From Alphaproteobacteria bacterium (GTDB lineage Bacteria; Pseudomonadota; Alphaproteobacteria; Sphingomonadales; Kordiimonadaceae): a stretch of 33,316 nt of DNA. Position numbers and translations under genes: made by a program. Location: NCBI GenBank assembly GCA_013372975.1, contig JABXIS010000095.1, positions 1 through 33,316 on the forward strand, written 5' to 3'. The notes below the pieces were generated by a model. It was not told where the DNA came from. It ran no database searches and saw nothing but the letters and a program-made list of their open reading frames with translations. Below are positions 7,079 through 25,055 of the stretch, piece after piece; the first letter of the stretch is position 1; each line of letters opens with the position of its first letter.

Positions 7079-8431
7079 TCAAAATGTTAGCGAAAACTTC
7101 GCGCCGCCGCCTTCGCGTTCATTTAATGTGACCGATCCGCCGTGCGCTATCATTACCTGTCGGGTAAGGGCAAGCCCAACGCCACTGCCTTCCCGTTTGG
7201 TGGTGAAGAAAGGCACAAAAATTTTCCGGGCGATCTCCGCTGGGATGCCGGGGCCATTGTCGGCCATCTCGATCACCACACGGCCACGTTTGTTGAGGCG
7301 CGCTGAGAGCCAGACGGTGGCACCGTCGGCCTCACCAAGAGCCTGTTCAGCGTTCCTGAGCATATTGATCAACACCTGTTCGATCATGTCCCGATCAGCG
7401 GTGACGTCCAGTTCGCTGGGCTCGATATGGGTGACCAAGCGAAGGCCCTTCTCCTCCCATTTTTGAGTTGAGAGGCTGCAGACATCCTTGAACAGGCTAT
7501 CCAGCCGGATCAGCGATTTTTCAGGCGGCGGCAGGCGCGTGAGGCGGCGATAGCTTGATACAAACTGCATCAGGCTATCTGACCGACGCGCAACTGTGTT
7601 GACCGCATCTTTCACATCCTTCAACTCGTCCACAACCTCCGGATTTTCAGTTACCTTGCCGGCAGCGTCGTCCACCAGATCTACAGCCGTCTTGGCAAGG
7701 CTGGCCACTGGCGTAATGGAATTCATGATTTCGTGTGTGAGCACACGCACCAAATCCTGCCAGGCTTGCAGTTGTGCCAGATCCAGTTCGCTCTGGATGT
7801 CCTGCAGGCTTACGAGTTTTTCGGCCTTGCCGCTGATAATGATCTGGGTTGCGGCGACGGCTAGCTGCTGTTCGGTACCGTCGATGCGGAAGGCGGTCAG
7901 GTGGCGTTTGCCTGGATGAACTTGTTCCAGATCTTTGGCAAAGGCGTCACCAAACTGAGTCAAATCGGCTAGCCGTGTCACGTGAGCACTACCGAACAGG
8001 CGACGGGCGGCGTTGTTCCAAAGCGTGATAGCGCCATCACCATGAAGGGATAGAAGCGGCACGGGTACATGCTCCACAAGCGCCTTCAAATGCCTGAGTT
8101 CTTCTTCCTGCCCAGCGCGAACGGACTGAAAGCGTTGCAGAATGTCTGAAAAGGTGTCTCCCAATTCCCCGAACCCGGCGCCCAGCCCATGAAGGTTAAA
8201 CCGTTGGCTGAAATCCGCATACCGTGCAGCCTCGAGAAAACGGCTAACTTCTGCATTTGTTTTGGAAACGAAACGAATGACTTCATAGGTCAGCCCGCAG
8301 GTGATTAGGAAGGCCAAAAGTGTGGCGGCATAATAGCCTGGCGTGGTGATCAGGTAGGTCAGCAAAACAAGGGCGCCCATGATAACAAACAGGCGACCGG
8401 CCAGCAGCAGGCTGAATTTCTTAAAGCCCAT
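7079..8431 (-). CDS. Membrane-bound PAS/HAMP histidine kinase of an NtrB-like two-component system
   Basis: The 450-residue kinase has two N-terminal membrane helices (~7-28 and ~33-52) with almost no periplasmic loop between them, so it probably senses the membrane itself or an intracellular cue. A HAMP-like linker (~50-105) and a PAS domain (~115-215) follow. The dimerisation helix has LTHEIMNSITPV with the phospho-accepting His233. The ATPase domain has NMLRNAEQAL (N box), MADNGPGIP (G1), FVPFFTTKREGSGVGLAL (F and G2). The gene overlaps the regulator gene by 11 bp, so the two are translationally coupled partners. The placement divergent from an exporter operon suggests that the exporter is its output; the signal is unknown. 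Confidence 0.93.
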   Translation of the reverse strand: MGFKKFSLLLAGRLFVIMGALVLLTYLITTPGYYAATLLAFLITCGLTYEVIRFVSKTNAEVSRFLEAARYADFSQRFNLHGLGAGFGELGDTFSDILQRFQSVRAGQEEELRHLKALVEHVPVPLLSLHGDGAITLWNNAARRLFGSAHVTRLADLTQFGDAFAKDLEQVHPGKRHLTAFRIDGTEQQLAVAATQIIISGKAEKLVSLQDIQSELDLAQLQAWQDLVRVLTHEIMNSITPVASLAKTAVDLVDDAAGKVTENPEVVDELKDVKDAVNTVARRSDSLMQFVSSYRRLTRLPPPEKSLIRLDSLFKDVCSLSTQKWEEKGLRLVTHIEPSELDVTADRDMIEQVLINMLRNAEQALGEADGATVWLSARLNKRGRVVIEMADNGPGIPAEIARKIFVPFFTTKREGSGVGLALTRQVMIAHGGSVTLNEREGGGAKFSLTF

Positions 8432-9839
8432 GTTTTTCCATCCTTCTGTAGAGCGCAGCCCGTGTTAAGCCCAGTTCCTTGGCGGCATGGCTGATATTAT
8501 AGCGCTGCTTCTTAAGGGCTTGCTCGATAGCGCTGCGTTCAAGGCGCTCCAGATTGAGGTCGGCTTCCTCATTTTCCGATTGAATTTGGGTGGTTTGGGG
8601 CTTGCGTTCGGCCATTGCGCCCGGCTGGTTGGGTTGCACTTCGAATTGGAAATCTGTGGCCTCGAAGACATCTCCTTCGCTCAGGATAACGGCGCGTTCA
8701 ATGGCGTGCCGAAGGGCGCGCACATTGCCGGGCCAGGGGTTGGCCATCAGCGATGCCATGGCAGCATCTGTAAACGCTTTGGGGTCGCGATGATATTTAC
8801 GGCAATAAAGGGTGCCGTAATAACGTGCGATTTCCGGAATATCCTCCGGACGTTCCCTAAGCGGAGGTAAATGCAGTTCGACGGTGTTCAAGCGAAACAA
8901 CAGGTCCTGCCTGAAGATGTCTTCGTCCCTGAGTTTATCGGGAGCAACATTGGTGGCTGCTACGACGCGTACATCAATGGGGATTTTCTTGTCCGAGCCT
9001 ACGGGCGTTACATGCCGCTGCTCAAGGACAGTCAATAGTTTGGCCTGCAAGTGCATGGGAAGATTACCGATTTCATCCAAAAACAGGGTGCCGCCATCGG
9101 CTGCCTGCAGTTGTCCGACACGATCTTCTCGGGCGTCTGTGAAGGCACCCTTCTTGTGGCCAAACAATTCGCTTTCAAACAGCGATTCCGTAACGGCCCC
9201 CAGATCGACAGACATAAACACCTTGTCCGCCCTTTGAGAGCGGTGGTGCAATTCCCGGGCGGCCAGCTCTTTGCCGGTACCATTTTCACCTAAAATCAAC
9301 ACATTGGCGTCCGTAGGCGCGGCCCGCTCGATCATAGTGAGCACGTCCCGCATAGGTGTGCTGTCCCCCAGGATCGGTTGCTTGGATGTGCTGACAGCTT
9401 TTGCCAGTACCTTGTTGGTTTTCTTGAGAGTTTCAGCCTCTGACCGGCTTTGGCGCAGTTTCACGCTGGCGGACAGGGTGGCAACAAGCTTTTCATTTTG
9501 CCAGGGTTTGGCGACAAAGTCGGTGGCGCCTTGTTTCATGGCCTCGACGGCCACACCCACACCGCCGTGTGCTGTGATCATCACCACCACCGCTTGCGGG
9601 TCGATTTCCAGAATTTTCTTGAGCCAGACAAACCCCTGCGCACCTGAGGATTCCCCGGGGCCAAAATTCATATCAAGGAGAATGGCATCAAAATCCTGTG
9701 CGGATAACAGCTCCGGAATGCGGTTCGGATCGCTACAGATTTCAACACTGCCATAATGACGCTTGAGCAGAAGTTTGCCCGCGACCAGAATATCTTCGTC
9801 GTCATCGACGATCAGGATTTTTCCTTTGTTTTCAGCCAT
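8421..9839 (-). CDS. NtrC-type response regulator with GAFTDA variant of the sigma-54 contact loop
   Basis: The 472-residue protein has a receiver domain (residues 7-120, phospho-acceptor Asp56, with the conserved TA at 89-90 and Lys111). It is followed by an AAA+ activator domain with Walker A GENGTGKE (184-191) and Walker B GGTLFLDEIG (249-258). A FIS-type helix-turn-helix closes it (SHAAKELGLTRAALYRRMEKHGL). The sigma-54-binding loop reads GAFTDA (231-236) rather than GAFTGA. Related regulators that accompany ABC exporters, especially in Bacteroidetes, also show this form as far as I recall, so loss of activity should not be assumed. The spacer upstream holds three shared dyads and a -24/-12 promoter facing the exporter operon, which supports a working sigma-54 activator. 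The dyads lie 30-90 bp from its own start, so autoregulation is likely. Confidence 0.95.
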   Translation of the reverse strand: MAENKGKILIVDDDEDILVAGKLLLKRHYGSVEICSDPNRIPELLSAQDFDAILLDMNFGPGESSGAQGFVWLKKILEIDPQAVVVMITAHGGVGVAVEAMKQGATDFVAKPWQNEKLVATLSASVKLRQSRSEAETLKKTNKVLAKAVSTSKQPILGDSTPMRDVLTMIERAAPTDANVLILGENGTGKELAARELHHRSQRADKVFMSVDLGAVTESLFESELFGHKKGAFTDAREDRVGQLQAADGGTLFLDEIGNLPMHLQAKLLTVLEQRHVTPVGSDKKIPIDVRVVAATNVAPDKLRDEDIFRQDLLFRLNTVELHLPPLRERPEDIPEIARYYGTLYCRKYHRDPKAFTDAAMASLMANPWPGNVRALRHAIERAVILSEGDVFEATDFQFEVQPNQPGAMAERKPQTTQIQSENEEADLNLERLERSAIEQALKKQRYNISHAAKELGLTRAALYRRMEKHGL

Positions 9840-9868: not shown

Positions 9869-9929
9869 TGTCCGGAACCGTACACAGATTGTTCATTTTC
9901 GTACAGTCAAAAGTGTTCGATATCGGACA
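9869..9929. promoter_or_regulatory. Three 16-bp dyads, probable enhancer (UAS) array for the NtrC-type regulator
   Basis: Three imperfect palindromes of equal length lie in tandem: TGTCCGGAACCGTACA (9869-9884), TGTTCATTTTCGTACA (9890-9905) and TGTTCGATATCGGACA (9914-9929). They share TGT-N-C(G/A)-N4-CG-N-ACA. Start-to-start spacings are 21 and 24 bp, near two helical turns, as expected for cooperative binding on one DNA face. Their centres lie about 86-131 bp upstream of the start predicted from the -24/-12 promoter, the usual range for NtrC-family enhancers. They are adjacent to the regulator gene, so the encoded regulator is the obvious binder. Binding is inferred. Confidence 0.75.
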
Positions 9930-9981: not shown

Positions 9982-9996
9982 TGGCACGGTGCTTGC
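9982..9996 (+). promoter_or_regulatory. Sigma-54 (-24/-12) promoter of the exporter operon
   Basis: TGGCACGGTGCTTGC matches the sigma-54 consensus TGGCAC-N5-TTGC exactly, with GG at 9983-9984 and GC at 9995-9996 separated by the required 10 bp. Transcription should start near 10008. It lies 53 bp downstream of the last enhancer dyad and about 60 bp before the adaptor start codon chosen here, on the correct strand. Confidence 0.85.
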
Positions 9997-10068
9997 GCAT
10001 ATCTCATGCCAAACGGGCGAACAGGCTCGTGGAGGAAACACCAAATCCGGAAAAAACGGACGAAAGCG

Positions 10069-11475
10069 ATGGGTACAGTGACCGACATGGAACAAAAACA
10101 AAAATCCGGCCAAACGATCTCCATGCAGGGGGGCACAACTGGGCACAATGGCCCAAAAGGGCACACAGGGGCACACAGAATGGGCCCAAAAAGCGGTGCG
10201 GTGTCTGGTTCCGGCATGGATCGTCGTGTTGAAAAGAAAAAAACACCCTGGAAAAAAGTAGGCATCGCTGCGGTGGCAGTGGCGGCTGTGGGTTTTATCG
10301 CTACCATGATGATGGATGCATCCGGCGGTCGTAGTTTCCGGGTGGACGAAAGCCGTATCGTTGTCTCAAACGTGACCACCGGCACCTTCGAAGATTTCAT
10401 TCCGGTTCGCGGACGGGTGACGCCTTTGAAAACAGTTTTCCTTGATGCCATCGAAGGGGGACGGGTTGAGCGCGTTCTCGTGGAAGATGGCGCCATGCTC
10501 AAAGCAGGCGACATGATCGTGGAACTGTCCAACACTGGCCTGCAGCTTGATGTAACGCGCAACGAAGCGCTGGTGACCGAGCAGCTCAACAACATGCGCA
10601 CGATCGAGCTTCAGCTTGAACAGAACCGCCTGTCCCACAAGCGCAATATCGTTGAAATGAATTATCAGATCAAACGGCTTGAGCGGCAGGTGTTGCGTGA
10701 GCGCGAATTGATCAAAACCAACGCGATTTCACAGGCCCAGCTGGACCAGACGGAAGACGAGCTTGAATATTACCGCAACCGCCTTGAGATCACGCTCGAG
10801 AGCCAGAAAACCGACGCCGAGATGCAGGAAACCCAATTGGCCTTCCTGAAAGACTCTGGTGAGCAGCTTGAAAAAAACCTGAAGCTTGCCCGCAAGAACC
10901 TGGATGCCCTGAATGTACGGGCGCCAGTGGACGGCAAGCTTTCCGGCTTCAATGTTGAAATCGGCCAGAGCATTAACCGCGGTGGACGCCTTGGCCAGAT
11001 CGATGATCCGGACCGCTACAAGCTGACAGCAAATATTGACGAGTTTTACCTGGGCCGCGTGGATCTGGGCCAGGAAGCCATCTATGAGCGCGGCGGCGAA
11101 AGCTATTCGATGTCTATCGCCAAAATCTATCCCCAGGTTCAGAACGGCCAGTTTGAAGTGGACTTTGTGTTCGCTGGTGAAGGCCAGCCAGATGGCATCC
11201 GCCGCGGGCAGACGCTGCAAACCAAATTGACGCTTGGTGACGCGACTGACGCTGTGCTGATCCCGAACGGCGCCTTCTTCCAGGACACAGGTGGCAACTG
11301 GGTGTTTGTGGTGTCCGCTGATGGCTCGCAAGCTGTTAAGCGCACTGTGCGCCTTGGCCGCCGCAACAGCCGCTATATCGAGGTTCTAGACGGCCTTGAA
11401 GTTGGCGAGCGCGTGGTGACAAGCCCTTACACCAGCTTTGTGGACATGGACCGCCTGAAGCTGTCCGGTGAATAA
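10069..11475 (+). CDS. HlyD/MacA-type periplasmic adaptor (membrane fusion protein)
   Basis: With the start at 10069 the protein has 468 residues. It has a positively charged segment (MDRRVEKKKTPWKK), one membrane helix (~64-82), a lipoyl/barrel-sandwich half, a long coiled coil (~160-280, QLEQNRLSHKRNIVEMNYQ onward), the second lipoyl half (NVRAPVDGKLSGFNVEIGQ), and a beta-barrel and membrane-proximal domain (VLIPNGAFF, LDGLEVGERVV). It would link the inner-membrane ABC permeases to an outer-membrane channel, for which no gene is present here. The start is the weak point. The frame stays open to 9763, but that extension contains the enhancer dyads and sigma-54 promoter and cannot be translated from that promoter. 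Candidates are ATG 10069, ATG 10087 and ATG 10216; the last begins the family-like MDRRVEKKK, and none has a strong ribosome-binding site. First gene of the operon. Confidence 0.9.
   Translation: MGTVTDMEQKQKSGQTISMQGGTTGHNGPKGHTGAHRMGPKSGAVSGSGMDRRVEKKKTPWKKVGIAAVAVAAVGFIATMMMDASGGRSFRVDESRIVVSNVTTGTFEDFIPVRGRVTPLKTVFLDAIEGGRVERVLVEDGAMLKAGDMIVELSNTGLQLDVTRNEALVTEQLNNMRTIELQLEQNRLSHKRNIVEMNYQIKRLERQVLRERELIKTNAISQAQLDQTEDELEYYRNRLEITLESQKTDAEMQETQLAFLKDSGEQLEKNLKLARKNLDALNVRAPVDGKLSGFNVEIGQSINRGGRLGQIDDPDRYKLTANIDEFYLGRVDLGQEAIYERGGESYSMSIAKIYPQVQNGQFEVDFVFAGEGQPDGIRRGQTLQTKLTLGDATDAVLIPNGAFFQDTGGNWVFVVSADGSQAVKRTVRLGRRNSRYIEVLDGLEVGERVVTSPYTSFVDMDRLKLSGE
10131..10175 (+). repeat. Four GGGCACA copies encoding a short collagen-like tract
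   Basis: GGGCACA occurs at 10131, 10141, 10159 and 10169, spaced 10, 18 and 10 bp. In the adaptor frame the stretch reads GHN-GPK-GHT-GAH, four Gly-X-Y-like triplets in the cytoplasmic tail ahead of the membrane helix. It lies downstream of the predicted transcript start, so it is either a low-complexity protein tail or, if translation starts at 10216, a repeat in the leader RNA. Confidence 0.55.
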
Positions 11476-11580: not shown

Positions 11581-12264
11581 ATGCTCAAGCTTCACAATCT
11601 TTCAAAAGTATACCGCACAGACGAGGTGGAAACCGCAGCGCTCAACAGCGTGAATGTGGAAATCGAGTCCGGCGAATTTGTGGCCATCATGGGCCCGTCA
11701 GGCTGTGGTAAATCCACGCTGCTGAATATTATCGGCATGCTCGATAGCCCGTCATCAGGCGACTATATTTTCATGGGCGAGAATGTAGCTGGCTATAACG
11801 AAGCAAAGCTTTCAAATATCCGCAAGCAGAACATCGGTTTCATCTTCCAGAGCTTCAATCTCATCGACGAGTTGACTGTGGAAGAAAACATCGAGCTTGC
11901 GCTTCTCTATCACAATATCCCGGCATCAGAACGTCGTGAGCGCGTGGCCCATGTGATGGACAAGGTTGGCATCGCCCACCGCGCCAAACATATGCCAAGC
12001 CAGCTTTCGGGTGGTCAGCAACAGCGTGTGGCAGTTGCCCGTGCGGTTGTCGGCGATCAGGCCATGATTCTGGCGGATGAGCCGACCGGTAACCTCGATA
12101 GTGCCCACGGCCAGGAAGTGATGGAAATGCTGCAGCAGTTGAATGCTGAAGGTACCACCATCGTGATGGTTACACACAGCCCGGCACATGCCGACTATGC
12201 ACGCCGCACAATCAACCTCTTTGATGGCCATGTGGTGACAGAAAATCTGCGCGCCGCCGAATAG
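11581..12264 (+). CDS. ABC transporter ATP-binding protein, MacB/LolD type
   Basis: The 227-residue ATPase has Walker A GPSGCGKST (38-46), Q-loop FIFQSFNLI (~87-95), signature LSGGQQQRV (142-150), Walker B MILADEPTGNLD (162-173) and H-loop VTHS (197-200). SGCGKSTLLNIIGMLD and DEPTGNLD are typical of the LolD/MacB/FtsE-type class that drives mechanotransmission rather than moving substrate through the membrane. AGGAAAGGA precedes the ATG. It is the only ATPase in the operon and is followed by four permease genes, so it must presumably serve all of them. Confidence 0.96.
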   Translation: MLKLHNLSKVYRTDEVETAALNSVNVEIESGEFVAIMGPSGCGKSTLLNIIGMLDSPSSGDYIFMGENVAGYNEAKLSNIRKQNIGFIFQSFNLIDELTVEENIELALLYHNIPASERRERVAHVMDKVGIAHRAKHMPSQLSGGQQQRVAVARAVVGDQAMILADEPTGNLDSAHGQEVMEMLQQLNAEGTTIVMVTHSPAHADYARRTINLFDGHVVTENLRAAE

Positions 12265-12301
12265 AAAATAAAAAAATGGCCGCGACAGCGGGAGGATAAC
12301 A

Positions 12302-14782
12302 ATGTTTCAGAACTATATCAGCGTTGCATTCAGGAACCTGATCAAACACAAGCTTTATAGCGCCATCAATATCATCGGCCTGGCCGTTGGGTTGGCCGCT
12401 TGTGTGTTGATCACCCTGTTTGTGCGTGACGAACTTTCCTATGACACTTTCTGGGATGAGGCAGACAGCCTTTATCGGATGAACACAACCTTCAACGTAC
12501 CCGGTCGCGAGCCGTTTGTCACTGTGATGGCAATGGGGCCAGCCAAGGGTGCGCTTGAGCGCTATTTCTCGGAAGAGATCGAGGCGGTAACGCGCTTCAA
12601 TAACGAATGGCCTGTGATTCAGTATGATGACAAGGTCTTCAGTGAAGAGGTTTATTTCACAGACCCTACCACGGTGGACATGTTCTCATTGGACGTGATC
12701 GCCGGTGACCTGAAGGCGTCCCTCAATGACAACTCCACGCTGGTGGTGAATGAAAGTTTTGCGAAGAAGCACTTCGGTGACCGAGACCCAATCGGTCAGG
12801 TAATGACGCTGACTTACTATGCCACAACACGGGATTTCCGGATTGGGGCAGTTTACAAGGATCTGCCACACAATAGCGTTCTGGACTTTCAGGCTCTGAT
12901 CATGATTGACGAGGCCGATTTCGAGAACTTCCCGTGGGAATTTCAGCATTGGTTTTCTGTGAACAACAACATCTTTTTCAAGCTGAAGGACGGGGTGTCC
13001 ATCGATACAGTGAATGCACGCTGGAAAGATTTCACAGATACAATGATGGATGTTCGGGCGCAAATCGAGCCGGGCACCAATCCTTCTGACTTCGTTACTT
13101 TCTCAAGCCAGGCGCTTCTGGATATCCAGCTTTATCCCGCGGGTGACGGTGAGATGAAGCCAACCGGCGATATCAAGACAGTGATGATCTTCTCGGCCAT
13201 CGCGGGCTTGATCCTGCTGATTGCCTGTATCAACTTCATGAATTTGGCGACGGCGAAATCCACCCAGCGGGCGCGTGAGGTTGCTATCCGTAAAGTGATG
13301 GGTGCGCGTCGTGGCCAGCTTGTAACCCAGTTCCTGGGTGAATCCATCCTGCTTGCGCTTGTGGGCCTTGCGCTCGGCATCGTGCTGGTGGAATTGACGT
13401 TGCCGTTTTATGGCGATTTCCTCGGTCGTGAGCTGACCTTCTCCTACACGGACGGTATCACCATGGCCATTCTCTTGGGCCTTATCGCCTTTGTTGGCGT
13501 GTTGGGTGGTTTTTATCCAGCAATCGCGCTTTCGGGGTTCCTGCCAGCACGGGTATTGAAGGCCAACAAGTCTGCTGAAACGTCGGGTTCTGTTCTGCTC
13601 AGGAACGCGCTTGTTGTGCTGCAGTTTACCATTTCTATCGGCCTGATTGTTTCCACCGCGGTGGTCTATGGCCAGATGGTCTATGGCCAAAACATGGATC
13701 CGGGCTTCAAGAAAGACAATATGCTGGTCATCCGCAATGTCGGTGAAAAGGGCATGCTGCACCAGCAGGAAGCTTTTAAGCAGGAAGTGTTGCGCCTGAA
13801 CGGTGTGAACCATGCATCCCTTACCATGGGGCGTCCAGCGGACGGCAACGAGAGCAACACCAGTGTTGAAATTCCGGGTGATCCGGATGCTGGCAGCATT
13901 CTGCTTGGTCGTCAGGGTGTCGATGTCGACTTTTTCGATACCTATCAAATTCCGTTTGTGGCCGGCCGCAAGTATGAGGAAGACCGTGCACAGGACGGTG
14001 CGCCATCTTCAGACGGCGCCACGGATGGCGAGATCCTTCAGGGCTCGATCGTTGTGAACGAGCGCACAATTGCACGCCTTGGATTTGGGTCTCCGGAAGA
14101 GGCAATCGGCCGTGTGGTGCGCATGGGCGTGGGTGATGGCGTTCAGGCCGATCTGGAAGTGATCGGTGTAGTGCCGGATATCAATTTTCAGTCGCTCAAG
14201 CAGATCATCCGTCCTGAGATGTATGTCATGGATGATGGCTGGCGGGGTAACCTTACAGTCAACTTCTCAGGTGATCCGCAAGCGCTGCTGGCCCAAATTG
14301 AAAGCATCTGGCAACAGATGGCGCCAACTGTGCCTTTCTCCTACGAGTATGTTGACCAGGCGCTGGCGGAAGAGTTTGAAGCAGAGCAGGCGCTTGCCAC
14401 GATGCTTGGGGCCTTCTCGATGCTTGCAATCGCAGTGGCCTGCCTCGGCCTATACGGCTTGGCATCTTTCACGGCTGAGCGCCGCACGAAAGAGATCGGT
14501 ATCCGCAAGGTGCTGGGCGCCAGCGTTGTGGATATCGTTCGCCTCCTGATCTGGCAGTTCTCCAAACCTGTATTGGTTGCCAACCTGATCGCATGGCCGC
14601 TGGCGGCCTACGGCATGATGATGTGGCTTGAGAGCTTCCCGTACCGCTTGGATACATGGCTTCTTGCGCCGCTGTGTGTGGTGGCAGGCCTGATCGCGTT
14701 GACAATCGCGTGGGTAACAGTGGGTGGCAATGCCGCCAAGGTGGCACGTGCCAATCCAATCAAGGCCCTTCGGTACGAATAG
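12302..14782 (+). CDS. MacB/FtsX-type ABC permease, copy 1 of 4
   Basis: The 826-residue protein is an internally duplicated FtsX permease. A first membrane helix (~21-42) is followed by a periplasmic MacB-core domain (~45-280), three helices, a central helix (~440-460), a second periplasmic domain (~465-690) and three C-terminal helices, eight in all. The duplication shows in the paired cytoplasmic motif: REVAIRKVMGA (~325-335) and KEIGIRKVLGA (~730-740). It ends in NPIKALRYE. Single MacB permeases have four helices and work as dimers, so this chain could supply both halves. GGGAGG lies 8 bp before the ATG, and the gap to the ATPase gene is 37 bp. Its FLPARVLKANKS linker is nearly the same in copy 4, its closest relative here by eye. 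Confidence 0.93.
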   Translation: MFQNYISVAFRNLIKHKLYSAINIIGLAVGLAACVLITLFVRDELSYDTFWDEADSLYRMNTTFNVPGREPFVTVMAMGPAKGALERYFSEEIEAVTRFNNEWPVIQYDDKVFSEEVYFTDPTTVDMFSLDVIAGDLKASLNDNSTLVVNESFAKKHFGDRDPIGQVMTLTYYATTRDFRIGAVYKDLPHNSVLDFQALIMIDEADFENFPWEFQHWFSVNNNIFFKLKDGVSIDTVNARWKDFTDTMMDVRAQIEPGTNPSDFVTFSSQALLDIQLYPAGDGEMKPTGDIKTVMIFSAIAGLILLIACINFMNLATAKSTQRAREVAIRKVMGARRGQLVTQFLGESILLALVGLALGIVLVELTLPFYGDFLGRELTFSYTDGITMAILLGLIAFVGVLGGFYPAIALSGFLPARVLKANKSAETSGSVLLRNALVVLQFTISIGLIVSTAVVYGQMVYGQNMDPGFKKDNMLVIRNVGEKGMLHQQEAFKQEVLRLNGVNHASLTMGRPADGNESNTSVEIPGDPDAGSILLGRQGVDVDFFDTYQIPFVAGRKYEEDRAQDGAPSSDGATDGEILQGSIVVNERTIARLGFGSPEEAIGRVVRMGVGDGVQADLEVIGVVPDINFQSLKQIIRPEMYVMDDGWRGNLTVNFSGDPQALLAQIESIWQQMAPTVPFSYEYVDQALAEEFEAEQALATMLGAFSMLAIAVACLGLYGLASFTAERRTKEIGIRKVLGASVVDIVRLLIWQFSKPVLVANLIAWPLAAYGMMMWLESFPYRLDTWLLAPLCVVAGLIALTIAWVTVGGNAAKVARANPIKALRYE

Positions 14783-14893: not shown

Positions 14894-17320
14894 ATGTTCA
14901 AAAATTATATGACAACAGCCATCAGGAATTTGCTCCGGCACAAGCAATATACGCTGATCAATATCTTTGGTCTGGCGGTGGGGCTTGCAGCCTGCATGTT
15001 GATCCTTCTCTATGTCAGCTTCGAACTCTCGTACGACCGCTGGATACCGCACAATGATCGGGTGATGCGCGGGCAGGTGTATGCCTACGACCGGGACGGT
15101 AATTTTTCCGGCGACGAGGAATCGATCCAGCCGGTTACCACGCCGCTTTTTGCCGAACAGATTGACGGCATCGAACTCTATTCCAGATTGCTCGACGACA
15201 GTGTCGCGCTGGCGGTGGACAATCAGGCCTATGAGCAGGAAATCACCATCGCAGACCCGGATGTGTTTGAGTTGATGGGGATCACGCTGATCGAAGGCGA
15301 TGTTTCAACCGCCCTTGATAATCCGGATTCCATCGTACTCAGCGAAACCGACGCCCGCAGGATTTTTGGCAACACATCACCCCTTGGTCGGGTGGTGAAG
15401 ATCAATGGCGAACATGACCTTCGGGTAACCGGTGTTATGCCGGATTGGCCGCATGCTTCTGACCTCAATGTCAATGCCTTTATCCCTGCCAACACCGCTG
15501 TATTTGATCATACGCCGTGGCGCCTGAACAGCTGGGGGTCTTTCTCCGGACCAAGCTATTTCCGCCTCAAGGAAGGGGTTGATCCGGAAGTTGTGGCCAA
15601 AGAAATGAACGAACTGGCCATGCGTGTGGGACCGAGCAACCGTTATAAGGACCGTGTCGACCGTGGCATGAAGCCACAACATGTTTTCCACCTGACGAAA
15701 GCTGTTGATGCCCACCTGAAAAGCGATGCCAGTGGCGGCGACGGCCGTGGCAGCATGGCCAATCTGCTTACCGCTGGCGTAATCGCCTTCCTGATTTTGG
15801 CCATTGCCGTGATCAATGTAACGAACCTTGGCACCATGCTGGCGATGAAGCGGGTGCGCGAGGTGGCGATCCGCAAGGCGCTGGGGGCCGAAGGCCGGCA
15901 CCTCATGGTGCAGGTATTGGTGGAATCTGTTTCCCTTACCGTTCTTTCAATGCTGATTGGCGTTGCGATGGCGGAAGCCTCGCTGCCGATGTTCAGCGAG
16001 TTGATGAACCGAGCGCTGACCAGCAGCCTGATTTATGAGCCAGGCATGCTTCTGGTGCTGATCGGCGGCACACTGCTGGTGGGTGTTGTTTGTGGGCTAT
16101 ATCCCGCATTTGTTGCCGTGCGTTTCCGTCCGGTTGATTATCTCGCGGGCATGAAGCCAAAGGTGGGCAGCCGTTTCCGCAACGTCCTGATTGTTGCGCA
16201 ATTTGCGGCAACCATCGGCCTTTTGGCTACCTGTCTTGTGGTGTTCATGCAGGCCGAATATGCCAAAACCAAGGACGCGGGTTTTGATAGCAGCCAGCTT
16301 CTGGTTGTCAGCGGCACGTCACGTCCAGTCGTGCTGAACCGCGAGGAAGCGCTGAGGGATGCCTTCGCCAGGATTGAGGGCGTAGAAGGCGTGGCAGCTT
16401 CCCACGACATGCCGGGGCATGACTATAACAACTGGAATGGCCTGTTGCTGGACAATGGCAATTCCATTGATGTGCGCCGGTTCGCCATGTCGGCCGATCT
16501 TCTGCCCATGCTGGGCGTGAAACCGCTTGCCGGACGCCTGTTCGACAAAAACCGCGAGGCCGATGCGCGCACCACTCCCGAACACGGTGCATCGGGCGCG
16601 ATCATATTGAACGACCTTGCGGCGCGGGCGCTTGGCTTCGCCACCCCTGAGGAAGCCATCGGGCAGGAAGCCCGTACGTGGGGCGATTTCCGGTCGACCA
16701 TCGTTGGTGTGGTTGAGAACCTGCGTGTGCGGTCGGCCCGGTCTGAGCCCAGCCCGACCTATTATTGGATTGGGCCTCATGAATACCGCCATGTCGTGCT
16801 GAAGGTGCGCCGTCAGGGTATGGCCGACACGCTGGCGGAAATCGACCGCGTGTGGCGCGAATTTTTCCCTGATCTGCCTATTCGTCGCCAGTTTGTCGAT
16901 GAAACTTTTGCAGAGTTCTACGACACCGAGCGTCGGCAGGGCTGGCTCCTGTTGTTCAGTGCGGGTGTTATGACAGCAATTGCCGTGATGGGGCTTTATG
17001 GCCTGGCAGCGCTCGCGACCGAACGGCGCTCGAAAGAGATCGGCATCCGCAAGGTGCTGGGTGCGAAAAGCCGCAATATTGTCCGGCTGCTGGTGTGGCA
17101 GTTCTCAACCCCGGTGCTGATCGCCAACCTGATTGCCTGGCCGATCGCCTGGTATGGGCTGGCGCAGTGGCTGGAGGGTTTTATCGACCGTATAGGCCTC
17201 ACACCATGGCCGTTCCTGGTGGCGGGTACAGCCGTTCTTATGGTGGCCTGGATCACCATCATTGGCCATACGCTCAAGGTTGCGCGGCGCAGCCCGATCA
17301 AAGCCCTCAGATACGAATAA
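14894..17320 (+). CDS. MacB/FtsX-type ABC permease, copy 2 of 4 (divergent copy)
   Basis: This 808-residue paralogue keeps the eight-helix double-FtsX layout with REVAIRKALGA (~322-332) and KEIGIRKVLGA (~714-724), and ends SPIKALRYE. It is the most divergent of the four by eye. The linker after the fourth helix reads FRPVDYLAGMKPKVGSRFRNVL instead of FLPAR-LKANKS. The first periplasmic domain carries SIQPVTTPLFAEQIDGIELYSR, unlike the aromatic-rich stretch in the others. AGCGAGGACAGC precedes the ATG. Frame and length are intact, so it is not a decayed copy. Differences concentrated in periplasmic domains would fit a different substrate or adaptor contact, but that is inference. Confidence 0.92.
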   Translation: MFKNYMTTAIRNLLRHKQYTLINIFGLAVGLAACMLILLYVSFELSYDRWIPHNDRVMRGQVYAYDRDGNFSGDEESIQPVTTPLFAEQIDGIELYSRLLDDSVALAVDNQAYEQEITIADPDVFELMGITLIEGDVSTALDNPDSIVLSETDARRIFGNTSPLGRVVKINGEHDLRVTGVMPDWPHASDLNVNAFIPANTAVFDHTPWRLNSWGSFSGPSYFRLKEGVDPEVVAKEMNELAMRVGPSNRYKDRVDRGMKPQHVFHLTKAVDAHLKSDASGGDGRGSMANLLTAGVIAFLILAIAVINVTNLGTMLAMKRVREVAIRKALGAEGRHLMVQVLVESVSLTVLSMLIGVAMAEASLPMFSELMNRALTSSLIYEPGMLLVLIGGTLLVGVVCGLYPAFVAVRFRPVDYLAGMKPKVGSRFRNVLIVAQFAATIGLLATCLVVFMQAEYAKTKDAGFDSSQLLVVSGTSRPVVLNREEALRDAFARIEGVEGVAASHDMPGHDYNNWNGLLLDNGNSIDVRRFAMSADLLPMLGVKPLAGRLFDKNREADARTTPEHGASGAIILNDLAARALGFATPEEAIGQEARTWGDFRSTIVGVVENLRVRSARSEPSPTYYWIGPHEYRHVVLKVRRQGMADTLAEIDRVWREFFPDLPIRRQFVDETFAEFYDTERRQGWLLLFSAGVMTAIAVMGLYGLAALATERRSKEIGIRKVLGAKSRNIVRLLVWQFSTPVLIANLIAWPIAWYGLAQWLEGFIDRIGLTPWPFLVAGTAVLMVAWITIIGHTLKVARRSPIKALRYE

Positions 17321-17368: not shown

Positions 17369-19801
17369 ATGTTTCAGAATTATATAAAGACAGCCATTCG
17401 AAGCCTGATGAGGAACAAGCTGTTTTCGGTGATCAATATCGCCGGGCTTGCCATCGGGTTGGCCGCCTTCATTCTGATCATCCTGTTTGTGAAAGACGAA
17501 TTTTCCTGGGACAGCCATTGGAGCCGCGCGGACGACATCTATCGTCTGGAGAATACCTACATCCGTGTGGACCAGCCTGACAGGGCTTCGCCCAATGCGG
17601 TTGATCCGCTCAAAGATATTTTCTTTGAAACCTTCCGTGAAGTGGAAGATGTGACCCGCTATATCAACGGTGCCATGACACTGAGGAATGGCGGGGAGCT
17701 GTTCGCCCAGCCGGTGTTTTTCGCGGATCCGAATTTCTTCGACTTTTTCGAACTGACCTTCCTTGAAGGCAGCGCCGATACGGCCCTTGTGAACCTGTCC
17801 GATGCAGTAATCAGCAAACGGACAGCCCAAAAATACTTCGGTGACGTGCCCGCCCTTGGCCGGACGCTTACGGTGCGCATGGGTGATGAATATCGCGATT
17901 ATTATGTCAGCGGCGTGGTTGAGGACCCCAAGGAGCGCTCATCTGTCGTGCATGACTTTGTGGTGCCTTTCAATCGGGAGGATTTTGTTGGTGCCCGCTG
18001 GTTCACGGAAGACTGGCGCTTCGCCATTCGCACCACCTTCGTGCGTTTCGCCTCGGGGACAGATATGGACCTCATTCGTGCTGAATTGCCGGCTATTGTT
18101 GAGCGGCATTTGCCAAAGGGCCAGCAAGGCCAGGAAAATGGCCGCAATTGGTCCATGAAACTGCACCTGGTTCCGATGCAGGACATTCACCTGTATGGTA
18201 ACGATGCCAATGCTGACCCTGATGTCCTCTTTGGTTTTGTGGGCGTTGCCGTCCTTATCCTTCTGATTGCGATGGTGAACTTCCTCAACCTTTCGATGGC
18301 GCGCACCGCGCACCGGGCACGGGAAGTGGCCATGCGTAAGGTTCTGGGGGCGGGCCGCGGCCAGGTGGTGCAACAGTTCCTTGGGGAATCTGTCCTTCTT
18401 GCGTCAGTTGCCTTGTTGCTGGCGCTTGCCATGGTTGAAGTGGCGCTGCCCTACTATAGCGAATTCCTGCGCACGATCGTTGCGCTTGACCTCATGAGCC
18501 AGCCAGCTCTTTTGGGTGCGCTTGTTCTGCTTGGTATTGGTGTTGGCGTGAGCGCCGGCAGCTTCCAGGCCACTTATTTCGCCATGCTGAAGCCGCGCGA
18601 TGTGCTCTATAGCAACACATCGGCCGACAACGGCACATCCAGGCTACGGCAAGCGCTGGTCATTGCCCAGTTCACAATCTCTGTGGCGCTGATGATCATT
18701 GCGTTTTTTGTGAATAAGCAAACAGACTATGCACGCCAGCTGGAATTGGGTTTCAAAGCGGACAATCTGATTGTTCTGTCTGGCACCAACAACCGGCGTT
18801 CAAACGAATTTAAAGCGCGGCTTCTTGAAAGTCCCTTCATCACGGCGGTTGGTCGCTCGTCTGACGTGCCGACAGAAGGCAGCGAAGACCGTCTGCATAT
18901 TCGTCCCGCAACCGGCGGTGAACCAGTGATGCTTGACGGCCTGCCCACAGATCCTGATTTCTTCAAAGTGTATGAAATTCCGCTATTGGCAGGCCGCTTC
19001 CTGACTGACACTGGGGTAGATGTTTTGCGTGATCGTGCGGAAGAACCAGTTTACGCCCCGGCCGCGAATATTGTTGTCAATGCCATGGGGGCAAAGCTTC
19101 TGGGGTTCGAAACACCTGAGGCCGCCATCGGCCAGCAAATGCCGGTGGATATGTCATCCACCTTGCGGATTGACGCCACCATTGTTGGTGTCGTGGGTGA
19201 CTTCCATTTCGACAGCGCGCGTGATGTGATTCGCCCTGGCATCTATTATGTGGATTTTGTCCGGAATTCTGACATGACAGTGCGCATCGACGGCGCCAAC
19301 CGGGAAGCCGCCATTGCGCATATCGAACAGGCATGGCGGGAAACATACCCGGACAACATCCTGCGCTACCGTTCCATGGCGGAACTGGTGGAAAGCCAAT
19401 ATCAAACCGATGACCAGCTTGGTGATGTGCTGTTGGCCTTCACGCTTCTGGCTGTTTTCATCAGCTGCATGGGGCTTTACGGGCTGGCGTCCTTTACAGC
19501 TGAGCGCCGTACAAAGGAAATTGGCATCCGCAAGGTACTGGGTGCGCGCCTTGGCGATATCGTGGGCATGATGATCTGGCAGTTTTCCAAGCCAATCCTG
19601 ATTGCAAACCTGATCGCATGGCCGGTAGCCTTCTATTTCCTCTATAGCTGGCTGGATGGTTTTGCCTACAGGATCGAGCTTGGCCTGTTGCCTTTTATCG
19701 GCATTGGCGGCGCGGCGCTGTTGATCGGCTGGATGACAGTTGCCGGCCATGCGCTGATGGTGGCCCGGTCCAACCCGATCAAAGCCCTGAGATACGAATA
19801 A
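17369..19801 (+). CDS. MacB/FtsX-type ABC permease, copy 3 of 4
   Basis: An 810-residue paralogue with the motif pair REVAMRKVLGA (~318-328) and KEIGIRKVLGA (~716-726). The N-terminus MFQNYIKTAIRSLMRNKLFSVINIAGLAIGLAAF matches copy 1 closely, while the interdomain linker LKPRDVLYSNTSADNGTSRLRQAL differs from all three others. The second periplasmic domain has the run DVPTEGSEDRLHIRPATGGE and a short acidic insertion (DRAEEPVYAPAANIVVN). CAGCGGAG lies before the ATG, and the gap after copy 2 is only 48 bp, which suggests these two are expressed together. The C-terminus NPIKALRYE is unchanged. Confidence 0.92.
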   Translation: MFQNYIKTAIRSLMRNKLFSVINIAGLAIGLAAFILIILFVKDEFSWDSHWSRADDIYRLENTYIRVDQPDRASPNAVDPLKDIFFETFREVEDVTRYINGAMTLRNGGELFAQPVFFADPNFFDFFELTFLEGSADTALVNLSDAVISKRTAQKYFGDVPALGRTLTVRMGDEYRDYYVSGVVEDPKERSSVVHDFVVPFNREDFVGARWFTEDWRFAIRTTFVRFASGTDMDLIRAELPAIVERHLPKGQQGQENGRNWSMKLHLVPMQDIHLYGNDANADPDVLFGFVGVAVLILLIAMVNFLNLSMARTAHRAREVAMRKVLGAGRGQVVQQFLGESVLLASVALLLALAMVEVALPYYSEFLRTIVALDLMSQPALLGALVLLGIGVGVSAGSFQATYFAMLKPRDVLYSNTSADNGTSRLRQALVIAQFTISVALMIIAFFVNKQTDYARQLELGFKADNLIVLSGTNNRRSNEFKARLLESPFITAVGRSSDVPTEGSEDRLHIRPATGGEPVMLDGLPTDPDFFKVYEIPLLAGRFLTDTGVDVLRDRAEEPVYAPAANIVVNAMGAKLLGFETPEAAIGQQMPVDMSSTLRIDATIVGVVGDFHFDSARDVIRPGIYYVDFVRNSDMTVRIDGANREAAIAHIEQAWRETYPDNILRYRSMAELVESQYQTDDQLGDVLLAFTLLAVFISCMGLYGLASFTAERRTKEIGIRKVLGARLGDIVGMMIWQFSKPILIANLIAWPVAFYFLYSWLDGFAYRIELGLLPFIGIGGAALLIGWMTVAGHALMVARSNPIKALRYE

Positions 19802-19860: not shown

Positions 19861-22368
19861 ATGTTTAGAAACTATTTCCTGACCGCATGGCGGCATATTC
19901 TGAAAAACAGGATGTTTTCAGCCATCAATATTTTTGGCCTGGCCATCGGTATGATGAGCTGCATTCTGATCCTTCTCTATGTCAAAGACGAGCTGACATA
20001 CGATACCTGGGTTCCTGAGGCCGAGAAGGTTGTGCGCATTCATTCGGCCTATTATCCGCAAGATCGCCCACCATTTCTGACTGTGCGGTCCGCAGGCCGG
20101 ATCATGGAGACGCTGAAGTCCTATGCCAGTGCTGAAGTGGAAGAGGGGGTTCGCCTGTTCAACAACAGCACCACCGTGCTGCATGAAGACAATGCCTTCA
20201 CAGAGCAGGTAACGTTTGTTGATCCGTCCTTCTTCCAGATTTTTGATATGCCGTTTGTAGTCGGGGACAGGGAGACCAGCTTCGAGAAGCCGATGGATAC
20301 AATCCTGACCGAAGAGATGGCGATCAAATATTATGGGCGCACTGATGTAGTGGGTGAGACCATAACCTTCTGCTGCATGCAAGGGCAGCCCATGGAAGCC
20401 CAGATTTCCGGCGTCATCAAGGATGTTCCGGAGAATTCCCACCTTCAGCTTGGTATCGTCATCTTGATGGACCCGACCATGTTCGATTTCGCGCCCAATA
20501 TCCTGAATACATGGACCAGCGTGAATGTTTATACCTATTTCAAGTTGCGTGACGGTGCGACGGCGGCTGACCTCAAGGAGCGCTATATCACATGGCTGGA
20601 TACAGAGAGCATTTTCACTGAACGCGAAGACCTGCCAGGCAAACCATCCGACTTTATCAAGCCGAATGTGATGCCGCTTCTCGATCTGCATCTAATGGCG
20701 CGAGCAGACGCAGGCAATATTGGTGACATAACCCCAATGGGTGACATCAATATGGTTTATGCCTTCTCCGTCGTGGCCCTCCTGATCCTGCTGATTGCTT
20801 CCATCAACTTTATGAATTTGGCGACAGCAAGGGCATCCAGACGTGCGCGAGAAGTGGCCCTCAGGAAGGTGCTGGGCGCAAGCCGGGCACAAGTTGCCAT
20901 GCAGTTCCTTGGGGAAGCTGTTGCCATCGCGGGGCTAGGGCTTTTGTTTGCTTTGGTCGCGGTTGAGCTTTCCCTGCCACTTTATAATGACGCCATCGGC
21001 AAGGAATTGTCATTCAATCTGTTTGGCAACCTGCCCATGCTTGCGGGCCTGATGGCAGTAGCTGTGCTGGTTGGCCTTCTTTCGGGCAGCTATCCAGCGG
21101 CCTACCTGTCGCGCTTCCTGCCAGCACGTATCCTCAAGGCAAACAAATCATCTGAACCTGAAGGGTCCGGGCGGTTCCGAGCAGCGCTAGTTGTGTCACA
21201 GTTCGCGATCTCCATCGGTCTTGTGATGTGCACGGCTGTTATCTACGGCCAGACAATCTATGCCAAAAGCAAGGATGTAGGCTACAGCCATGATGGCAAG
21301 CTGGCAGTCACCAGCATTGATGATATGCCATCTGCTGATCGGGTTCGGGCAGTTGTGCAGGAGCTGGAAAAAATTCCAGGCGTAAGCGATGTTGTTATGT
21401 CGTCTGAGGTGCCAAGTCAGGACAATGAAAACAACACTTATTTCCAACTACTTGATAGTGGCAGCAGCGCTGCATCTGAAGGGTCGGTTCTGAATTACCA
21501 CTCATTTGGCTTTGGCTTCTTCGAAGCTTACGGTATCGAACCGATTGCAGGGCGTACATTCAACGAAGCTTACGGCACTGACGAAATTACGCCAATTCCT
21601 GAAGGCGAAGATCGCGTGGGATCAGCAAGCCTGGTTCTGAATGAGTCTGCAGTTCGCGCTCTTGGCATCGCCTCTCCTGAGGCCGCTTTGGGCAAAACAT
21701 TGCGCGCCAATGTGTTCCGGGCTGGCAATTTTGAACTGACAATTGTCGGCGTAGTGCCGGATATCTATTTCCGTTCTCTCAAGTTTGGTGTTCGTCCAAC
21801 CGCCTATTGGGTGCATCCGACCACTTTCGGAGCAGCAACGCTCAGTTTCAGCACAAATGATATCAGCCGTGTGCTTGCGGATGTCGAAAATGTCTGGCGT
21901 CAGCATGCGCCGCAGACGCCGCTTGCGCATTCCTTCGTGTCTGACATGTTGGCGGCGCAGTATGATAGCGAAACCCGGCAGGCCAAGATGTTCGCGGCCT
22001 TCTCGGTGCTTGCTATCGTTGTGGCTTGCCTTGGACTATATGGCCTTGCCTCTTTCGCCGCTGAACAGCGCACCAAGGAAATCGGCATCCGCAAGGTTTT
22101 GGGCGCGCGTGTGCGCGATATTGTGCAGCTGTTGGTGTGGCAATTCTCCCGCCCCGTGCTGGTGGCCAACGCCATTGCATGGCCTGCAGGCTGGTATCTG
22201 ATGTCAGGCTGGCTGGAAGGATTCCAGTACCGGCTGGACGGTAGCTTTATCTGGGTCATGGCCCTTGTGGCTGGCCTGAGCGCCTTGTTGATCGCGTGGA
22301 TCACGGTGGCTGGCCGCGCCATTCATGTGGCCCAGGCAAATCCGATCCATGCCCTCAGGTATGAATAG
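19861..22368 (+). CDS. MacB/FtsX-type ABC permease, copy 4 of 4
   Basis: The longest paralogue, with 835 residues. It has REVALRKVLGA (~330-340) and KEIGIRKVLGA (~739-749) and ends NPIHALRYE. It shares FLPARILKANKS and the IDINFMNLATA-like fourth segment (ASINFMNLATARASRRAREVA) with copy 1. Its first periplasmic domain contains two adjacent cysteines (ITFCCMQGQPME) absent from the other copies; in the oxidising periplasm these could form a disulfide or bind metal, which is speculation. TGAAGGAG precedes the ATG. It is the last gene of the exporter operon: a short hairpin and a strong terminator follow within 70 bp. Confidence 0.93.
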   Translation: MFRNYFLTAWRHILKNRMFSAINIFGLAIGMMSCILILLYVKDELTYDTWVPEAEKVVRIHSAYYPQDRPPFLTVRSAGRIMETLKSYASAEVEEGVRLFNNSTTVLHEDNAFTEQVTFVDPSFFQIFDMPFVVGDRETSFEKPMDTILTEEMAIKYYGRTDVVGETITFCCMQGQPMEAQISGVIKDVPENSHLQLGIVILMDPTMFDFAPNILNTWTSVNVYTYFKLRDGATAADLKERYITWLDTESIFTEREDLPGKPSDFIKPNVMPLLDLHLMARADAGNIGDITPMGDINMVYAFSVVALLILLIASINFMNLATARASRRAREVALRKVLGASRAQVAMQFLGEAVAIAGLGLLFALVAVELSLPLYNDAIGKELSFNLFGNLPMLAGLMAVAVLVGLLSGSYPAAYLSRFLPARILKANKSSEPEGSGRFRAALVVSQFAISIGLVMCTAVIYGQTIYAKSKDVGYSHDGKLAVTSIDDMPSADRVRAVVQELEKIPGVSDVVMSSEVPSQDNENNTYFQLLDSGSSAASEGSVLNYHSFGFGFFEAYGIEPIAGRTFNEAYGTDEITPIPEGEDRVGSASLVLNESAVRALGIASPEAALGKTLRANVFRAGNFELTIVGVVPDIYFRSLKFGVRPTAYWVHPTTFGAATLSFSTNDISRVLADVENVWRQHAPQTPLAHSFVSDMLAAQYDSETRQAKMFAAFSVLAIVVACLGLYGLASFAAEQRTKEIGIRKVLGARVRDIVQLLVWQFSRPVLVANAIAWPAGWYLMSGWLEGFQYRLDGSFIWVMALVAGLSALLIAWITVAGRAIHVAQANPIHALRYE

Positions 22369-22873: not shown

Positions 22874-23890
22874 ATGGATTTTAATGCTGTGACACTGGTT
22901 GATGCAGTACAACTTGAGAAGATTGTTCTCGCCAAGCGTGTGGGGCAGTTCCTCGTGAAGGAACAGTCCGAAGAAGAACGCGCAACCGTTGAGAATGTCG
23001 CTCGGGTTTTGGCGCAGGACGTGTCGCAACAGGTTCGCGAAGTACTGGCCTTTGAACTGCGCAAATGCGAAGTGCTTGCCTTCGATCTTGCAGAAAAGAT
23101 TGCTCGCGACGTGGAACTGGTGTCTGGCCCGTTTCTGGGTGAAACCAAAGTCTTTACCGATAAGGAATGGATACGCCTGATCCCGGCGCTGGAAGAGCAT
23201 GCGCTCAAGACGCTGGCGCGTCGGTCTGATCTAAGCGAAACCGTTTCTACTGCTGTGGCCACTTATGGCAACGAACCAAGCGTGACCACACTCGTTCGCA
23301 ACGACCGGCTTGAAATGCCGGAAAAGGCCAGCGGCAAGGTTGTGGACCGCTTCAGCGACAATGTTCGCATGATGGACCACCTAAGCGCCCGCATGGACCT
23401 GCCTTTGGCAGTAGTCGAGCGGATTGTGAACAAGGTTTCTACCCATTGTCGGGACCTGTTGGTTTCGCAATATGCCATTGATCAGGATGTGGCTGGGCAG
23501 ATTGCCGAAGACAATAAAATCGATGTGCTTTGGGACAAGCTCAAAAACGCCAATGGCCCGCAGGTGCATGCCTTTGTCACTGATCTCAGGAATGACCGGC
23601 GCCTGACGTATCTCCTGGTGGTAGAGATAGCCGAGCGTGGCTGCGCGGCCTTCATGGAAAGTGCGCTGGCGCTGGAGGCAGGGCTGCCAATCGGTCGCAT
23701 TCGTGAAATTCTGACGCTCGAAGACCCTCAGGCCTTCGTGCGGTTGATGCAAATGGCCAATGTCAGCAAGACAATGGCTCCTCGTTTTCTCAAACTGGCC
23801 AAGCGTTTTTATGGCGAAGGCATAGAACAGAAAGAGGGCGAGGTAATCAATATCCCTCGGGCAGAGCAGGCGGAGGGTGCAGTCGCATGA
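22874..23890 (+). CDS. DUF2336 family protein, copy A
   Basis: The 338-residue protein is rich in predicted helices and polar, with no signal peptide or membrane helix, so it is probably cytosolic. Its N-terminal half shows the alphaproteobacterial DUF2336 pattern: KIVLAKRVGQFLV, ERATVENVARVLAQDVSQQVREVLAFELR, LPFDLAEKIARDVELVSGPFL-like text, then EEHALKTLARRSDLSETV. Repeating helical pairs with conserved LA-R/DVS positions suggest a HEAT-like scaffold. GGAG lies 8 bp before the ATG. No function is known to me for this family. A second copy follows 184 bp later, and the spacer between them holds nothing recognisable. Confidence 0.85.
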   Translation: MDFNAVTLVDAVQLEKIVLAKRVGQFLVKEQSEEERATVENVARVLAQDVSQQVREVLAFELRKCEVLAFDLAEKIARDVELVSGPFLGETKVFTDKEWIRLIPALEEHALKTLARRSDLSETVSTAVATYGNEPSVTTLVRNDRLEMPEKASGKVVDRFSDNVRMMDHLSARMDLPLAVVERIVNKVSTHCRDLLVSQYAIDQDVAGQIAEDNKIDVLWDKLKNANGPQVHAFVTDLRNDRRLTYLLVVEIAERGCAAFMESALALEAGLPIGRIREILTLEDPQAFVRLMQMANVSKTMAPRFLKLAKRFYGEGIEQKEGEVINIPRAEQAEGAVA

Positions 23891-24074
23891 TCCGTGGCCC
23901 GGTGGCAGCCGGGCAAACCAGGGCTGGGGGGTCCTCTGGAAAATCAAGGGAGCTGGGCGGCCGGGTGTGTTTTGCCCGCCGTTAAGACAATTTTTACAGG
24001 CACTCGTGATACTTTGAGGTGGGTGTCAAACTGGTGAATGCTGCAGAAGCAGCTTTCGATGATGGAGTCACGTG

Positions 24075-25055
24075 ATGAGTTTGGACCCAGAAAATCTAGC
24101 CAAGGCCGATCCGGTGGCCAAGGTGGTGCTCGCCAAAAGGGCGTCGCGCTTCCTGAATTCCGATAATCAGGCAGAAGATGAACTGGCAACAGTTGAGAAT
24201 ATTGCGCGGGCGTTGGCGCAGGATATATGTCTGGAAGTGCGAGAAACGCTTGCATTTGAGCTGAGGTTCTGTGAAAGCCTGCCCTATGATCTGGCGGCGC
24301 GTATCGCAACAGATGTGGAAAGTGTTTCTGGGCCTTTCATTGAGGTGACAAAAGCCATCACTGATGATCAATGGGCTGCACTTGTGCCGCATCTGGAAGA
24401 ACATGCGCAGATGCGGTTGGCCAAACGGGCTGATCTTGGCGAACATACAGCCTTTGCTATTGCCAATTCGTCGCCCAAATCACCGGCCGGCATGATGATC
24501 AAGAATGTTTCCATTCGCTTGTCAGAGCGCGTTTGTGGCCGCACCATGGACCGCTTCGGTGAAGAAGCCGACATGATGGAGGCGTTAAGTCGCCGTGAGG
24601 ACTTGCCGCTTAGGGTAGTGGAGCGGATCGTGGATATGGTCTCAGGCGAATGCCGCAAACTCCTGATGGAGAAATATCCGGTAGCGTTTGAGGTGGCAGA
24701 CAAAGTTGCCCAGACCAGCGCTGACGAAGTTTTATGGGGCAAGATTGCGAAAGCAGGCCCCGCGCAAGTGCATGGTTATGTGCTTGATTTGAAGCGCGAA
24801 GGGCGGCTGAATGAAGCCTTGGTGATCAAAATGGCGGGGCGCGGCAGCTTCCAGTTTCTGGGTAGTGCGCTGGCGATTGAAGCGGGGATTACCCTTGGGG
24901 ATGTGCGCCGTGTTATCGAGACAGGTGATCTCAGGCGTATGCTGCAACTGGTGCACCGCGCCGGGTTCAGCAAAGACGCTGCCATGAAGATCATGCGCAT
25001 CCTGAAGAAGAATGAATTGAGATTTGCACGCAGCGAAGGGGCCAGCATGCATTAG
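24075..25055 (+). CDS. DUF2336 family protein, copy B
   Basis: A 326-residue paralogue of the preceding gene, alignable along its whole length: KVVLAKRASRFL, ELATVENIARALAQDICLEVRETLAFELR, DLAARIATDVESVSGPFIE, EEHAQMRLAKRADLGEHT, DLPLRVVERIVDMVSGECRKLL. GGAG lies 7 bp before the ATG at 24075; an in-frame GTG at 24072 is less well spaced. The C-terminus is basic (KIMRILKKNELRFARSEG), while copy A ends with an acidic tail, so the partners or sites of the two may differ. A terminator follows, so the pair form one transcription unit. Confidence 0.85.
   Translation: MSLDPENLAKADPVAKVVLAKRASRFLNSDNQAEDELATVENIARALAQDICLEVRETLAFELRFCESLPYDLAARIATDVESVSGPFIEVTKAITDDQWAALVPHLEEHAQMRLAKRADLGEHTAFAIANSSPKSPAGMMIKNVSIRLSERVCGRTMDRFGEEADMMEALSRREDLPLRVVERIVDMVSGECRKLLMEKYPVAFEVADKVAQTSADEVLWGKIAKAGPAQVHGYVLDLKREGRLNEALVIKMAGRGSFQFLGSALAIEAGITLGDVRRVIETGDLRRMLQLVHRAGFSKDAAMKIMRILKKNELRFARSEGASMH

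Follow-up and report, generated by a model that had tools for sequence, protein, structure and literature searches.

Three dyads beside an NtrC-type regulator gene of a marine bacterium: very probable docking sites of a signal-driven switch for a multi-part export pump, with lone pump genes and an unnamed tiny protein as likely further targets

The window, i.e., the whole stretch of DNA that was analysed, comprises 33,316 nucleotides of a contig (JABXIS010000095.1) from a marine alphaproteobacterium of the Kordiimonadaceae (assembly GCA_013372975.1). Two neighbouring genes on the reverse strand encode a histidine kinase (7079..8431) with two hydrophobic stretches joined by a very short loop, a PAS and an HATPase domain, and an NtrC-type response regulator (8421..9839) with a receiver, an AAA+ sigma-54 interaction and a Fis HTH domain. 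Across a spacer, an exporter operon runs on the forward strand. It starts with an HlyD/RND-type periplasmic adaptor (10069..11475, start codon uncertain, 10069 or later), followed by an ABC ATPase of the DarD/MacB/LolD-like type (11581..12264) and four MacB/FtsX (ADOP-like) permeases (12302..14782, 14894..17320, 17369..19801, and 19861..22368), the ATPase and the permeases being assigned by family model matches. The permeases were named ADOP-like, since they scored 280.8–336.9 bits against the ADOP model (TIGR03434) with its cutoff of 622.3. An identity as the darobactin exporter (DarB/C/D) was rejected, with the adaptor reaching 234 of 450 bits, the ATPase 276.1 of 375, and the permeases at most 134.2 of 700. 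Two consecutive DUF2336 proteins are encoded after the operon (22874–25055).

The spacer holds three 16-bp dyads without strand assignment, all of the shared form TGTNCRNNNNYGNACA: dyad 1 (TGTCCGGAACCGTACA, 9869..9884), dyad 2 (TGTTCATTTTCGTACA, 9890..9905), and dyad 3 (TGTTCGATATCGGACA, 9914..9929). The first-pass annotation had placed three palindromes at 9869, 9890, and 9914, and exact matching recovered them there, with steps of 21 and 24 bp from one start to the next and no further exact copy within the window. The term palindrome suits dyad 3 (14 of 16 self-complementary positions, the best of the three) and dyad 1 (12 of 16), while dyad 2 is imperfect (8 of 16), yet keeps the common core. 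Dyad 1, a predicted upstream activator site, was found to be kept in orthologous spacers; dyad 3 is present in part of the orthologs only. The array is located 29–90 bp upstream of the regulator's own start codon. Dyad 3 ends 52 bases before a strong match to a sigma-54 (-24/-12) promoter of the exporter operon (TGGCACGGTGCTTGCG, 9982..9997, forward strand), in agreement with the annotated placement between the regulator gene and such a promoter. Genome-wide, the single-dyad motif was rarer than its reversed-pattern control (9 versus 15 matches per strand), thus only the cluster of dyads carries meaning.

The regulator domains PF00072, PF00158, and PF02954 were found above the Pfam cutoff. With its receiver, AAA+ sigma-54 interaction domain, Fis HTH, and adjacent kinase the protein resembles NtrC, ZraR, and PrsR; however, it stayed below the curated NCBIfam cutoff of every model among the best 25 of 78 matched, including PrsR (TIGR02915, 358.5 versus 502.6 bits), NtrC (321.5 versus 558.6), and ZraR (291.9 versus 760). 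By these scores it was not accepted as the PEP-CTERM regulator PrsR, nor as NifA (286.9 bits against 528.85 for TIGR01817). The GAFTGA loop for sigma-54 contact was exact in 51 of 91 orthologs, and variants were GAFTDA in the window and 26 others, GSFTDA (5), GSFTGA (4), GAFTNA (3), and GSFTNA (1). The window regulator hence carries the predicted sigma-54 contact loop of the NtrC family as the variant GAFTDA. It also contains an LLDMNF-type motif with the putative phospho-acceptor aspartate, for which one strict pattern matched 63 of the 91 orthologs. The regulator had been called an orphan, which is wrong in the two-component sense, because its gene shares 11 bp with that of the histidine kinase, and in the orthologous loci L009–L118 a match to a kinase adjoins the regulator. 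Judged by hydropathy only, the two most hydrophobic 17-residue windows of the kinase N-terminus were separated by 2–14 residues in 87 of 87 kinases (4 of 91 loci were dropped), which indicates a kinase without an evident periplasmic sensor domain. By analogy with Bce-type kinases, our guess is that it may sense within the membrane or through the transporter.

Regulator orthologs were collected from 59 genomes, the bacterium's own included (30 loci listed), and from a collection of named genomes (80 loci kept of 102), the titles of which range from Kordiimonas to Colwellia, Woeseiaceae, and other Gammaproteobacteria. After dropping two of the loci L009–L118 that lacked the regulator N-terminus and removing duplicates, 91 distinct spacers including that of the window were compared. 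The adaptor gene lies divergently across the spacer in 88 of them. At least two exact sites were found in 82 spacers and at least three in 21, and with one mismatch allowed at least two sites were present in 90 of the 91. Two exact sites occurred in none of 4,550 mononucleotide-shuffled spacers. The first-pass annotation had named the loss of the dyads from such spacers as one point at which its proposal would fail, and it withstood this comparison. The 21-bp step accounted for 78 of 120 gaps between sites, and outside the dyads both length and sequence of the spacer varied between relatives. Only two spacers (L099 and L118) were found without an exact site. L118, the most distant ortholog of the set (55% identity), has a single site with a mismatch, and in these two the binding specificity has perhaps drifted.

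A strict sigma-54 pattern was detected in 61 of the 91 regulator spacers and was absent from 30, chiefly those of Colwellia and relatives. Relaxed promoters such as TGGAACGATTATTGGA became visible in many of 19 strict-negative spacers read alongside the window. A scored search yielded matches at at least 13 of 16 positions in 89 of 90 regulator spacers, a figure without shuffle control. Scored against a general IHF consensus, IHF-like sites with at most one mismatch were observed in 66 of 89 regulator spacers (versus 17% of shuffles) and in 31 of 45 remote promoters described below (versus 14% of shuffles). The dyad-promoter interval of the window contained no good IHF site, the best one having 3 mismatches. 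A tandem enhancer and a sigma-54 promoter that in many relatives enclose an IHF-like site would describe a looping enhancer.

For the search beyond the regulator spacer, a pair was defined as two exact dyads 3–12 bp apart and looked for in the 59 genomes, own included. It was present in 34 genomes and its reversed control pattern in none. The genome search proposed in the first-pass annotation had been uninformative for the single dyad. The line for a regulator ortholog was drawn between 414 and 331 bits, corresponding to at least 50% identity, which left 36 genomes in and 23 out. Exact pairs were found in 34 of the 36 genomes with the ortholog versus 0 of the 23 without (Fisher p 2e-14, optimistic due to kinship). 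As the pair is located at the regulator gene itself, this co-occurrence largely reflects linkage. Counting only pairs away from the regulator spacer, the comparison gave 22 of 36 versus 0 of 23 genomes (p 4e-7, again made optimistic by kinship), and 21 of 36 versus 0 of 23 (p 1e-6) without the G029 pair, which lies inside an exporter operon. Two genomes, G012 and G016, possess the regulator and no exact pair; in their spacers one site is exact and a second has one mismatch. A total of 14 of the 36 regulator-bearing genomes had no exact pair elsewhere. Among 19 genomes reached via the named, mostly gammaproteobacterial loci, 17 contained the pair and 16 of these only at the regulator, thus the dispersed regulon is lineage-specific. 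In G065 (Alteromonadaceae) a second pair with a weaker promoter (L281, G065:C22:425996–426033) is located before a lipoprotein-like gene of approximately 465 codons.

Altogether, 45 remote pairs away from the regulator spacer were found in 22 genomes, 37 in a first and 8 in a second set, none with a regulator gene beside it. All of them precede sigma-54 matches, and the regulon, held to be unknown in the first-pass annotation, is no longer wholly so. In the first set, all 37 pairs had a match of at least 14 of 16 positions 30–120 bp downstream, taking whichever side scored better, a cutoff chosen after this set had been seen, versus 3.2% of 7,400 random positions in those loci scored alike. 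The second set gave 8 of 8 at the same cutoff. The distances from pair to promoter (n = 45) clustered at 39, 51–52, 60–64, and 69–74 bp, approximately whole helical turns. Downstream of the pairs, 38 MacB/FtsX permeases, 5 microprotein copies, 1 TolC-type outer membrane channel (Pfam OEP match), and 1 other transcript were found. The first long reading frame was a permease homologous to those of the window in 31 of 37 loci of the first and 7 of 8 of the second set. Inspecting approximately 8 kb on each side of the 38 permease loci, or up to the contig end, no ATPase or adaptor homolog was detected in 37 of them. A second permease lies in tandem at two, and six show only weak kinase matches. 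At the one exception (L348, G029:C90:4656–4693), an exporter operon that includes adaptor and ATPase genes, the pair and its sigma-54 match lie between permease genes, possibly as an internal promoter. In a further case (L280, G052:C75:11801–11837), an exact pair and a full-score sigma-54 match are followed by no permease, but by a microprotein-like leader without a similar reading frame. From these arrangements, the lone pump genes and the unnamed tiny protein are likely targets of the same switch.

In the bacterium's own genome (G000) the permease-family profile gave four full-size matches, all in the operon of the window, plus weak partial ones, thus the scattered-permease regulon is seen in relatives and not in the own genome. 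Likely own targets are the exporter operon, the microprotein behind an exact pair, and an S41-type peptidase. The peptidase emerged when six genomes were searched for mismatched pairs, which added a single own-genome target with a good promoter: a one-mismatch pair (L307, G000:C59:16529–16565) with a sigma-54 match 53 bp on, before the gene of a probably secreted S41-type protein. Pairs with 3 mismatches occurred at about control level in the six genomes. The own microprotein has 35 residues (MAFLNEV...RRRTRRYK), and its gene follows a dyad pair and a sigma-54 promoter (G000:C13:109482–109805, L185 and L203). A terminator-like hairpin comes after it, and related proteins are encoded at the corresponding position in five other genomes. 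Reading frames of this kind, 31–39 residues long, preceded by a good ribosome-binding site and ending in an RRRxRRYK-type C-terminus, were present in 5 of the 37 first-set loci, own included. A sixth locus (G002) has a mismatch in one of its two dyads and encodes 42 residues. Comparing the acyltransferase-anchored loci (30 of 33 matches), pair, promoter, and reading frame occurred together in 6. The other 24 lacked all three; what they showed in total was two solitary dyads with one mismatch, a single weak match to the promoter, and two short frames that were unrelated and had no ribosome-binding site. When the six microproteins were made into a profile, it found the same 6 of 59 genomes only (E 1.1e-12 or better, next best 0.0096), and two microproteins submitted to Pfam gave no match. 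By eye, the stop codon is followed in four loci by what resembles a hairpin with a T-run, and the conserved arginines use differing synonymous codons across the six; because of the latter, an untranslated small RNA is disfavoured.

We consider it very likely that an NtrC-type two-component system uses a tandem enhancer to activate the exporter operon, and that in many Kordiimonadales it also activates a permease regulon scattered over the genome. The sites, promoters, spacing, downstream genes, and co-occurrence can be read from the DNA itself, and the dyads very probably are the docking sites of the switch. They would act as a tandem enhancer, with the response regulator of the adjacent gene using them as upstream activator sites. 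The partner kinase would phosphorylate the regulator, which would then assemble on adjacent dyads and contact the sigma-54 RNA polymerase at 9982–9997 by DNA looping, in many relatives probably aided by IHF. As a result, the adaptor-ATPase-permease operon would be switched on. Binding to the dyads probably also limits transcription of the regulator and kinase genes, because the array lies so close, 29–90 bp, to the regulator start codon. In many Kordiimonadales the same tandem sites before scattered single genes, mostly lone MacB/FtsX permeases, with the microprotein in six species and the TolC-type channel in one, would form a dispersed exporter regulon under one two-component system, and the lone permeases presumably use the ATPase of the operon. 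More tentatively, the system may be a mix-and-match exporter governed by a membrane-embedded kinase and a sigma-54 activator, in which one adaptor-ATPase set is common to many separate enhancer-controlled MacB-like permeases, and the RRxRRYK microprotein could be a dedicated part, be it exporter regulator, cargo, or feedback signal.

Several NtrC-family paralogs are encoded in each genome (7–21 matches), and TGT-N10-ACA is also the NifA enhancer according to the accessible part of PMC2820453. Another activator of the family might accordingly bind the dyads in place of the adjacent regulator. This is improbable, since none of the 23 genomes without the ortholog has the pair, though all 23 hold paralogs, and since the sites are found at the regulator gene in alpha- and gammaproteobacterial loci alike. 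Even less credence was given to the dyads as conventional repressor operators, or as a site solely for autorepression of the regulator gene, unrelated to the sigma-54 promoter. Their closeness to the regulator start codon in the window, and at 13 bp in several gammaproteobacterial relatives (starts inferred by alignment), would fit such a role. However, the 45 further pairs precede sigma-54 matches at helically phased distances with no regulator gene beside them. Chance palindromes or a structural RNA or terminator element, to which the scarcity of single copies relative to the control genome-wide would lend itself, can hardly be reconciled with dyad conservation, spacing, and promoter association in spacers that otherwise vary between relatives, and were rated as extremely improbable. 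The adjacent NtrC-type regulator, already put forward in the first-pass annotation, is the binder to which position, spacer conservation, presence and absence across genomes, and paired sites at other sigma-54 promoters point.

Bce-type detoxification modules possess intramembrane-sensing kinases. The present system shares with them a short-loop two-helix kinase together with FtsX-type permeases, but where those modules use an OmpR-type regulator it has one of the NtrC type and sigma-54, and it includes a periplasmic adaptor and several large permeases. Adaptor, ATPase, and MacB-like permease families are common to DarBCD and MacAB-TolC; in contrast, all components of the window remained below the Dar cutoffs, the operon has four permeases, and lone permease genes exist elsewhere in relatives. 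The NifA enhancer, as given in the accessible part of PMC2820453, also precedes a -24/-12 promoter and agrees with the present dyads in its 16-bp length, its outer bases, and the spacing of its half-sites. Here, however, an inner C and G are fixed too, the dyads form a tandem array with 21-bp steps, a response regulator with a receiver domain is proposed as the activator, and exporter genes instead of nif genes are the targets.

According to a survey from 2025, which spoke of a previously unrecognised axis, COG0577 permeases of Gammaproteobacteria and two further classes are enriched in sigma-54 promoters; in its accessible text neither an activator nor an enhancer motif was named for these permeases, and the word Kordiimonas is absent from its main text (PMC12316311). 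By word counts on the accessible text, FtsX, MacB, and HlyD are absent from a survey from 2011 (PMC3162934), and the accessible part of PMC7910581 held nothing on exporters. Among the listed results of searches in the open-access literature, no published description of the dyad motif, the regulon, or the two-component system was found. Regulator and enhancer are of a known type; what is new is the scattered lone-permease regulon with its new microprotein. A two-component system found from Kordiimonadales to Gammaproteobacteria thereby gains a predicted enhancer motif, regulator, and target set, and the adjacent regulator becomes a candidate activator for the sigma-54/permease-family link described in the accessible part of PMC12316311. 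A single exporter is predicted to work together with dozens of lone permease genes and with a microprotein that has no name yet.

The sequence CGACAGC was noticed in the microprotein leaders (L203–L206, L210, and L226), often repeated and ahead of the Shine-Dalgarno sequence, and also before some permeases, with a copy in the window at 12283–12289. As a regulon-wide leader element it was rejected, with 7 of 37 transcripts carrying it (approximately 0.8 expected), 5 of these 7 for the microprotein. In the leaders it could be an RNA-level element.
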